From Methanolobus vulcani (lineage in GTDB: Archaea > Halobacteriota > Methanosarcinia > Methanosarcinales > Methanosarcinaceae): 64,000 nt of DNA. Of the stretch, positions 59,057-60,770 are shown in pieces. Position numbers and translations under genes: made by a program. Below the pieces are notes generated by a model. That model did not search any database. It saw only the letters and a list, made by a program, of their open reading frames with translations, and was not told the DNA's origin. The stretch spans positions 1-64,000 of the forward strand of contig NZ_VIAQ01000012.1 of the NCBI RefSeq assembly GCF_006546655.1, given 5' to 3'. Positions within the stretch are counted from its first letter, which is position 1. Each line of letters opens with the position of its first letter.

Positions 59057-60247
59057 ATGGAAGATAAAATTTTGGACATACACAGATCACCCTTCAGAAT
59101 AGTTCTGGCAATAACCGGCGGAGGAACTGAAGCTATCGGAGAACTTCTACGTCATGGAGGGGGATCAGATACTCTTCTTGAAGCCATTGTCCCCTATGGC
59201 AAAGAATCATTGCACGACCTGATCGGAAAAGAACCGGATAAGTATGCTTCTGCTGAAACTGCAAAAGATATGGCAATGTCGACCTATCGTCGTGCATTAT
59301 TACTTGATTCTAAATCTGAAAAACCAGACCCACAGAGCCTGATAGGAATTGGCATTACCTGCAAACTTGCAAAACAAGGACGTGAACGTGAAGGCAGGCA
59401 ACATGAGCTTTATTTTGCCAGCCAGTCATACTACAAAACTACTGTTTCCGGTGTTAATTTAAAGAAAAAAGGGAGCAGAGAAGAACAGGAAAGTATCGCA
59501 GCAGATTATATTCTGGACAGAATAGCATCCCTGTGTAATCCAGAAAAGTACGCAGTTCAAGGTATTCAAGAAAAGGATACGGCAGAGAGAACACTTATTC
59601 TGGAAAATGAGGCTGAAGCTAATAATGAAACTTCAGAGCTGCTCCTTAAAACACTAGAAAGCATTAATTCTGGAAATAATGTCCCACGAAAAGTTAATCT
59701 TGGAATAAGTGCCAACAAACCAGGCATCATTTTGTCAGGTTCTTTTAATCCATGCCACAAGAACCATATTGAAATGGCGATGATAGCATCGGAAAAATAT
59801 GACATGCCTGTGGACTTTGAGATTTCCCTTGCCAATGTTGACAAGCCACCTATTAACTACATATCCCTGAAGGAAAGAGTGGATTCTGTCAGGGCTTGTA
59901 TGCAGGATATGAGAGGAGGTTCGGCAGGAAATATTTATCTGAGCAACTCTCCTCTTTTTGCAGACAAAGCTATTCTATTCCCGGATTCTGTTTTTTTGAT
60001 AGGGACAGACACCCTTAACAGACTTTTTAATGTCAATTATTATAGGGAAGGAGAAGACATGCAGAGCCTCATTGAACACTTCAGTAAATACAATACTAAA
60101 TTCCTGGTTTTCAGGAGAAAGGAGTCACAAATATGCAGTGAGATTGATATCCCTGATATCTGCGAGATAGTCTCATATGATTGTTACACCGATGACGGCA
60201 CTTCTTCTACGAAGATAAGAAATGAGAGGAAATGCAGTTTCAAATGA
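59057..60247 (+). CDS. CinA-like domain fused to nicotinate/nicotinamide-nucleotide adenylyltransferase-like domain
   Basis: A 396-residue fusion. Residues 1-165 resemble the CinA C-terminal (PncC-type NMN deamidase) domain: RIVLAITGGGTEAIGELLRH, LDSKSEKPDPQSLIGIGITC. A linker spans 165-225. Residues about 225-390 form a nucleotidylyltransferase: GSFNPCHKNHIEMAMIA (the HxGH-like turn is H-K-N-H), IGTDTLNRLFN and TSSTKIRNE, the family's ISSTxIR motif. Deamidation of NMN followed by adenylation is a plausible pathway, but both active sites need checking. It starts with ATG and overlaps the convergent neighbour by eight bases. Confidence 0.75.
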   Translation: MEDKILDIHRSPFRIVLAITGGGTEAIGELLRHGGGSDTLLEAIVPYGKESLHDLIGKEPDKYASAETAKDMAMSTYRRALLLDSKSEKPDPQSLIGIGITCKLAKQGREREGRQHELYFASQSYYKTTVSGVNLKKKGSREEQESIAADYILDRIASLCNPEKYAVQGIQEKDTAERTLILENEAEANNETSELLLKTLESINSGNNVPRKVNLGISANKPGIILSGSFNPCHKNHIEMAMIASEKYDMPVDFEISLANVDKPPINYISLKERVDSVRACMQDMRGGSAGNIYLSNSPLFADKAILFPDSVFLIGTDTLNRLFNVNYYREGEDMQSLIEHFSKYNTKFLVFRRKESQICSEIDIPDICEIVSYDCYTDDGTSSTKIRNERKCSFK

Positions 60248-60647
60248 TACTGCATGCATTGTATATGAAAGGACATCCCCTCATGTCATTCGTCTTTATA
60301 ATATCTGCATTTACTGCATTTGCAAGTTTATGAACAATATCCTTTGCTTTTGCTATACATTCAGCATCCATATCATTCCACTTACCGAATGATATGTTAT
60401 CAAGAGTCTCCTTCAGCATTAAAAGCTCATCTTTTGATACACAGTTCTCACTAGTTACACAATAGTCATTATCGTTACTCAGGTTCTTTAGATTACAGAG
60501 TATGGTATCCAGCCGGGAGCTTGTAAGCTCTTCGTTAAACCTGTGCTCAGAAGGATTTACATTATCCCTCCGATAATGAACTTCCGCCAGGAACAGGAAA
60601 CGGTCGCACTCGTGGAACCAGTCTCTAACGTCATATAATAGATTCAT
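60240..60647 (-). CDS. hypothetical helical protein
   Basis: About 135 residues. It is helix-rich, with a Cys-containing first part (LLYDVRDWFHECDRFLFLAE) and a central acidic part (SKDELLMLKETLDNISFGKW). No signal, no membrane helix, no recognised family. The start at 60647 follows a GGTGTGGGGT stretch; the alternative first codon is at 60659. The 3' end overlaps the fusion gene by eight bases, a convergent arrangement. Confidence 0.55.
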   Translation of the reverse strand: MNLLYDVRDWFHECDRFLFLAEVHYRRDNVNPSEHRFNEELTSSRLDTILCNLKNLSNDNDYCVTSENCVSKDELLMLKETLDNISFGKWNDMDAECIAKAKDIVHKLANAVNADIIKTNDMRGCPFIYNACSII

Positions 60648-60770
60648 ACCCCACACCACTAAAAAGATTGACTTCTATGATATAAAAGGCTATGGTGATA
60701 AAATTATACAAAAGTAAAAAATGCACAACAAAATATATACATTCGAGAGAAATAGATTCTTTTTACTAAT

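Follow-up and report, generated by a model that had tools for sequence, protein, structure and literature searches.

A CinA-like domain joined to an NMN/NaMN adenylyltransferase-like domain in Methanolobus, bacteria, and contigs classed as viral

A conserved fusion gene in Methanolobus

The gene described here occupies positions 59057 to 60247 on the forward strand of the window (the whole 64,000-nucleotide stretch of DNA that was analyzed) and encodes, from an ATG start, a protein of 396 amino acids (aa) in which a CinA-like domain is fused to an NMN adenylyltransferase (NMNAT)-like domain. The open reading frame (ORF) named in the original prediction is real: its coordinates are exact, and the two motifs quoted from it, GSFNPCHKNH (aa 228 to 237) and SSTKIR (aa 383 to 388), are present. 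A genome search found one copy in its own genome. The fusion occurs in 27 of 27 Methanolobus genomes, its own genome counted, and in 4 of the 10 listed genomes that represent other genera within the family; none of the 23 genomes examined from other families in the order had it. In a draw across the phylum, 40 of 392 genomes carried it, every one of them in the same family. The nearest named loci were from Methanolobus, with 86% identity to M. vulcani, and the remaining named archaeal matches were mostly from Methanosarcinaceae.

Pairwise comparisons with six close orthologues gave dN/dS values of 0.095 to 0.131 for the whole protein, 0.079 to 0.147 for the N-terminal domain, and 0.061 to 0.098 for the C-terminal domain. 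The gene is under purifying selection. Its presence throughout the genus, together with the whole-protein values, excludes a chance ORF, and the low values for each domain indicate that both halves are maintained. In one genome (G497), the gene is split into two pieces about 26 kb apart (C1:2582880-2583155 and 2608747-2609697) and is thus broken there.

Domain architecture and predicted structure

A confident structure model computed from an input of 39 sequences (pLDDT of 89.8, pTM of 0.90) resolved the protein into two domains. The N-terminal domain (aa 1 to 167; positions 59057 to 59557, forward strand) has the CinA/PncC fold, aligning in VIA-align with the CinA structure 6l19_A at a Z score of 16.5 over 149 residues (rmsd of 2.5), with 2a9s_A at 16.1, and with 4ct8_A at 15.6; the scores against ten CinA entries ranged from 15.4 to 16.5. 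It is followed by a linker (positions 59558 to 59713, forward strand), comprising a low-confidence stretch at aa 170 to 174 and a strand and helix at aa 178 to 205, which is the fastest-changing region of the protein at replacement sites. The C-terminal domain (aa 220 to 396; positions 59714 to 60244, forward strand) has an NMN/NaMN adenylyltransferase fold, its best match being Bacillus anthracis NadD (3e27_B; Z score of 14.3). Foldseek agreed with VIA-align on the folds of both domains.

At the sequence level, the sole Pfam match of the window protein was CTP_transf_like (PF01467) at aa 226 to 389, with 28.5 bits against a cutoff of 21; the same scan did not find the CinA family PF02464, which weakly matched 12 of the 16 members of a family alignment (best E value of 3e-4, in a listing open to E values of 10). 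Profile-profile (HMM-HMM) comparison of the N-terminal domain with 17 CinA sequences gave a probability of 95.9 and a score of 60.6; control scores were 19.95 at most for 20 column shuffles, 16.7 for the reversed alignment, and 13.1 for the C-terminal domain. These 17 sequences were drawn from 26 fetched loci, the other 9 of which had no ESCTGG-type pattern, so that the comparison leans toward CinA proteins bearing the catalytic dyad. Hence, the proposed kinship of the N-terminal half with CinA/PncC holds on fold and profile comparison, with Pfam silent on the window protein, and that of the C-terminal half with NMN/NaMN adenylyltransferases holds on both the Pfam match and the fold. The fusion falls far below the NCBIfam equivalog cutoffs, and its NadD matches are weak, with 19.6 bits against a cutoff of 112.45 for the curated NadD model TIGR00482. 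The archaeal NadM model TIGR01527 does not match the fusion, and its single match in the genome is another gene (G000:C17).

NAD genes and neighborhood in archaeal genomes

The original prediction had asked whether the genome holds separate NadM and PncC genes; it has a NadM, over the model cutoff, and no match to PF02464. With NadM present, the basic NMNAT step does not depend on the fusion. NadM was matched in 59 of the 60 genomes searched; the exception, G032, carries the fusion, which could be the sole NMNAT there if the missing match is not an assembly gap. PF02464, the PncC family, was matched in none of 40 genomes, including the fusion's own, whereas the control was positive in 10 of 14. 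The genome also encodes a PncB (TIGR01514, 425 bits). In a draw of 100 genomes from the family, 53 had the fusion, and a PF04095 gene was found in 51 of these 53 versus 25 of the 47 genomes lacking it (Fisher p of 2.8e-7), an association confounded by ancestry and assembly completeness, with the PF04095 gene confirmed as PncB in the window's genome only.

For the gene neighborhood, 515 ORFs adjoining loci L040 to L088 were clustered. Among the recurring neighbors inspected, which were found in archaea only, no NAD gene was recognized beside the archaeal fusions. A nicotinamide phosphoribosyltransferase (NAMPT)-like gene was found near none of the 73 archaeal loci, although loci L001 to L039 had flanks of only about 1.5 kb and were weakly tested in this respect. 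In the window, a convergent ORF of 139 aa on the reverse strand (positions 60240 to 60659) overlaps the last 8 bases of the fusion gene; the largest recurring neighbor cluster (17 archaeal loci) appears homologous to this ORF, which matched no NCBIfam or Pfam family at an E value of 0.01.

The altered HxGH motif of the C-terminal domain

Residues were counted across 129 members, comprising 73 archaeal, 15 bacterial, and 41 viral-contig members; the 73 archaeal loci represent 53 distinct sequences, some species having been reached by two tools. The nucleotidyltransferase motif HxGH appears in the window protein as HKNH (positions 59756 to 59767, forward strand), retaining both histidines (H234 and H237), which are present in all 128 members with the corresponding columns. 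G316 and D318 are likewise present in 127 of 127 members that have these columns. The SxxxxR-type ATP-binding motif is SSTKIR (positions 60203 to 60220, forward strand), and its arginine is found in all 125 members with the column. At the third HxGH position, the archaeal loci have asparagine (63), lysine (9), or serine (1), so that none of the 73 has a strict HxGH, whereas every bacterial (14 of 14) and viral-contig (41 of 41) member with the column has glycine. In a tree of 39 representatives, the archaeal members form one clade (support of 100/98), the nearest neighbors of which are four viral-contig sequences (unstarred support of 89/94, in an unrooted tree). Given this single clade, the change in HxGH most simply arose once, at the base of the archaeal lineage.

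The original prediction was right that HxGH is altered, but its concern that catalysis may be affected is weakened. Solved NadD enzymes have HTAH in Staphylococcus aureus and HLAH in Enterococcus faecium, and human NMNAT has TNMH; loss of the glycine is therefore not in itself loss of activity, and taking HKNH as proof of inactivity would be too strong. In the cyanobacterial NMNAT-C, both histidines are described as mattering (PMC13036487).

An alternative that we regard as doubtful is that the archaeal branch is a pair of pseudoenzyme domains, in which the replacement of glycine by asparagine or lysine abolished adenylyl transfer, leaving a protein that only senses or stores pyridine nucleotides. 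The fixation of the change in 73 of 73 archaeal loci and its absence from the 55 remaining members that have the column would fit this, as would the presence of NadM and the apparent dispensability of the fusion, which had no match in 47 of the 100 family genomes and lies in two pieces in G497. Against it, the archaeal members keep the histidine pair, G316, D318, N260, D262, and K263 invariant, as well as S383, S384, and R388 wherever the column exists; the C-terminal domain has the low dN/dS noted above; and alanine or methionine occupies the third position in the solved NadD/NMNAT enzymes.

Viral-contig and bacterial members and their linkage to NAMPT

A scan of viral contigs, “viral” meaning as classed by the source collection, recovered 61 loci (L134 to L194) with the fusion or its parts, whose contigs measure 8 to 513 kb, with 20 exceeding 200 kb. 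Both domains are carried in one ORF at 41 of these loci, the members counted above, and in two adjacent or overlapping ORFs at several others; both domain profiles passed an E value of 1e-3 in all 41, weakly in L188 and L189. Within the examined flank, 33 of the 61 loci have a NAMPT-like gene. Among the 41 single-ORF fusions, 23 have one there (21 of 38 without near-copies), and none was found for the other 18. In all 23 cases the gene lies on the same strand as the fusion, and in 10 of them the two are at most 400 bases apart. Assuming one such gene on every contig, chance placement would still predict only 7.9 of 41, compared with the 23 observed; on contigs over 60 kb, the linkage was observed in 15 of 31 cases versus 2.7 expected. 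The NAMPT model itself was verified on four genes (at L086, L164, L166, and L135), and the weakest NAMPT-like matches (at L172, L173, L182, L183, and L185) may be other phosphoribosyltransferases.

A NAMPT-like neighbor was found at one of the 15 bacterial loci, L086 (Vogelbacteria record); it is closest to solved nicotinamide phosphoribosyltransferases and lies two genes upstream in the order NAMPT, Nudix-like gene (below its model cutoff), and fusion. Neighbors were listed for 13 bacterial loci, a few of them scanned with NCBIfam, and L086 alone was informative. In the phylum of another bacterial member (L073, a Planctomycetales protein with HxGH), only 6 of 294 genomes had full-length matches (E value below 1e-90), most of the 129 matched genomes having partial ones. 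In a Dehalococcoidia locus (L088:5908-7163), the domains lie in two ORFs with a one-base overlap, either a natural split or a frameshift. Two queries found no match in a plasmid search, and phage records yielded two matches, both uncultured and unannotated. No PHROGs family was found for four of the five members tried, and the fifth, L146, had one weak, chance-like match.

Gene linkage to NAMPT is, in our reading, the strongest pointer to a role as an NMN adenylyltransferase. It bears on a further alternative, which we consider improbable: that the adenylyltransferase acts on some other phosphorylated compound instead of NMN or NaMN and that the N-terminal domain binds this same compound. Such a substrate would be consistent with the remoteness of the sequence from named equivalogs, with the absence of a conserved PncC TGIAGP stretch, and with the failure to recognize an NAD gene beside the archaeal fusions, but both domains have NMN/NaMN-handling folds, and the linkage in viral contigs and at L086 points to pyridine nucleotides.

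The N-terminal pocket

PncC relies on a Ser/Lys dyad, which in Agrobacterium tumefaciens CinA (AtCinA) consists of S31 and K63; the S31A and K63A mutants are inactive (PMC5384747). In T. thermophilus CinA (TtCinA), contacts to the phosphate come from Arg377, Tyr296, and the main chain of Gly284 and Ser286, with Lys301 put forward as the base (PMC4246079). The E. coli PncC mutants K61Q and S29A bound NMN without catalysis, whereas Y56A and R142A lost NMN binding (PMC8231969).

The catalytic lysine is lost from the N-terminal domain of the fusion. Its position (K63 in AtCinA, K301 in TtCinA) is taken by Leu52 (positions 59210 to 59212, forward strand), which stands opposite lysine in 17 of 17 CinA sequences in a register identical in every alignment made, whether HMM-HMM or MAFFT, and lysine occurs in this column in 0 of 129 members. 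The candidate phosphate-site residues are kept. Ser37 (positions 59165 to 59167, forward strand), matched to S48 of AtCinA and S286 of TtCinA, faces serine in 17 of 17 CinA sequences under four MAFFT settings, and its column has serine in 128 of 129 members and threonine in one. Tyr47 (positions 59195 to 59197, forward strand), matched to the phosphate-binding tyrosine (Y58 in AtCinA, Y296 in TtCinA), faces tyrosine in 17 of 17 CinA sequences and is tyrosine in 129 of 129 members. The HMM-HMM alignment places a one-column gap between Ser37 and Tyr47; the spacing from Ser37 to Tyr47 to Leu52 (+10, +5) equals that of Ser286, Tyr296, and Lys301 in TtCinA. Arg141 (positions 59477 to 59479, forward strand; arginine in 128 of 129) is a candidate match for the phosphate-binding arginine (R145 in AtCinA, R377 in TtCinA), facing this conserved arginine (17 of 17) in two MAFFT settings and another arginine (16 of 17) in two, and being off by two in the HMM-HMM alignment.

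The position of the catalytic serine (S31 in AtCinA) falls within Ala18-Ile19-Thr20 (positions 59108 to 59116, forward strand), with a register uncertain by two. The HMM-HMM alignment pairs the TGG motifs of the two families, with Ser31 facing a gap, so that counting back leads to Ala18; under four MAFFT settings, Thr20 stands opposite serine in 17 of 17 CinA sequences. Column 18 is serine in 16 of 129 members, and column 20 is threonine or serine in 119 of 129, making Thr20 a possible stand-in for the nucleophile. The TGIAGP stretch of PncC is not conserved in the fusion. Elsewhere in the domain, all 73 archaeal loci share E110, R111, R114, and H116, which perhaps form an archaeal-specific pocket; the bacterial members vary at positions 110, 111, and 116 and have a gap at 114.

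As the catalytic lysine is absent, we do not class the fusion as an NMN deamidase. With the lysine lost and the candidate phosphate-site residues kept, a state resembling the K61Q mutant, the best reading of the N-terminal domain is a non-cutting, putative pyridine nucleotide-binding domain. The original proposal that one chain converts NMN to NaMN and then to NaAD is therefore very unlikely, because the lysine essential in PncC is missing in 129 of 129 members and its replacement inactivates both AtCinA (K63A; PMC5384747) and E. coli PncC (K61Q; PMC8231969), even though the folds of both enzymes are joined in one chain, a separate PncC was not detected in the genome, and Thr20 faces the catalytic serine in the four MAFFT alignments. 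For the role in repair also raised there, we found no evidence.

Proposed function

We suggest, with a probability of roughly 60%, that the fusion is an accessory NMN/NaMN adenylyltransferase carrying a non-cutting, deamidase-derived nucleotide-binding domain. The C-terminal domain would join NMN (or NaMN) to ATP to form NAD (or NaAD). The N-terminal domain, which appears to descend from an NMN deamidase that lost its essential lysine and kept candidate phosphate-pocket residues, most likely binds a pyridine nucleotide uncleaved and may serve the synthase as a sensor, a substrate-capture module, or an assembly module. In methanogens, the fusion would work beside NadM, using NaMN made by PncB and NMN that arises by turnover. 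It may serve viruses, probably large phages, and at least one bacterium as the NAD-forming step after nicotinamide phosphoribosyltransferase. Counting against this reading are the coverage of the same step by NadM, the lack of a recognized NAD gene beside the archaeal fusions, scores far under the equivalog cutoffs, and the clade-wide replacement of the HxGH glycine, which might mark lost or altered catalysis. Phages that rebuild NAD as a counterdefense are known, by the NARP1 and NARP2 pathways (PMC11984713), and a survey of viral NAD systems names NadV together with NadM or NadR (PMC9503650).

More tentatively, we hypothesize that the protein is a natural NMN sensor built into an NAD synthase, in which the CinA-like domain would bind NMN (or NAD) and gate the adenylyltransferase or channel substrate to it. 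Large phages would then restore NAD in the course of infection by pairing the fusion, as a third NMNAT type beside NadM and NadR, with NAMPT, and methanogens would have acquired the gene once and retuned HxGH. If so, the phage fusion could be considered a candidate countermeasure against NAD-depleting defense, and the clade-wide change from HxGH to HxNH would offer a clean test of the importance of the glycine.

Comparison with known systems

Our literature search found no recognized description of a CinA-NMNAT fusion. The word “CinA” does not occur in the main text of the viral NAD survey (PMC9503650), and the work on cyanobacterial NMNAT-C, considered and set aside, names CinA once, as a pathway enzyme (PMC13036487). 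Should the proposed function hold, the NAD metabolism of archaea, bacteria, and viruses would gain an uncharacterized NMNAT type.

The C-terminal domain resembles NadD/NMNAT enzymes in its fold (Z score of up to 14.3), in the two histidines of (H/T)xxH, and in its GxD and SSTxxR motifs, but differs from them in the archaeal HxNH in place of HxGH, in scores below the equivalog cutoffs, and in the extra CinA-like domain. We take this domain to be related to yeast Pof1 and its plant homologues, At2g01220 presumably being a plant relative. Pof1 is described as a noncanonical NMNAT with HxxH and SxxxxR motifs, although the available parts of those papers mention no CinA domain for it (PMC13191266, PMC12470169, and PMC3282682). 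The NadM-Nudix and NadR-kinase NMNATs, including phage ones, likewise have a second NAD-related domain, and in phages a NadV partner (PMC9503650), but the second domain of the fusion is deamidase derived rather than a Nudix or a kinase.

With PncC/CinA (AtCinA, 2a9s; TtCinA, 4ct8; and E. coli PncC), the N-terminal domain shares its fold, the phosphate-site serine and tyrosine with their spacing, and TGG, along with an arginine that is a candidate match, but it has leucine for the catalytic lysine and alanine or threonine for the serine, its TGIAGP stretch is replaced, and it is joined to an adenylyltransferase. A further parallel is offered by the E. coli PncC mutants S29A and K61Q, which have been proposed as NMN sensors (PMC8231969): in the N-terminal domain, too, the lysine is lost and the phosphate-binding tyrosine and arginine are apparently kept, although the fusion is natural, is joined to a synthase, and has a putative ligand. 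If our reading is correct, loss of a catalytic residue would have turned a natural enzyme into a ligand-binding domain, matching the NMN-sensor mutants that have been built by hand.
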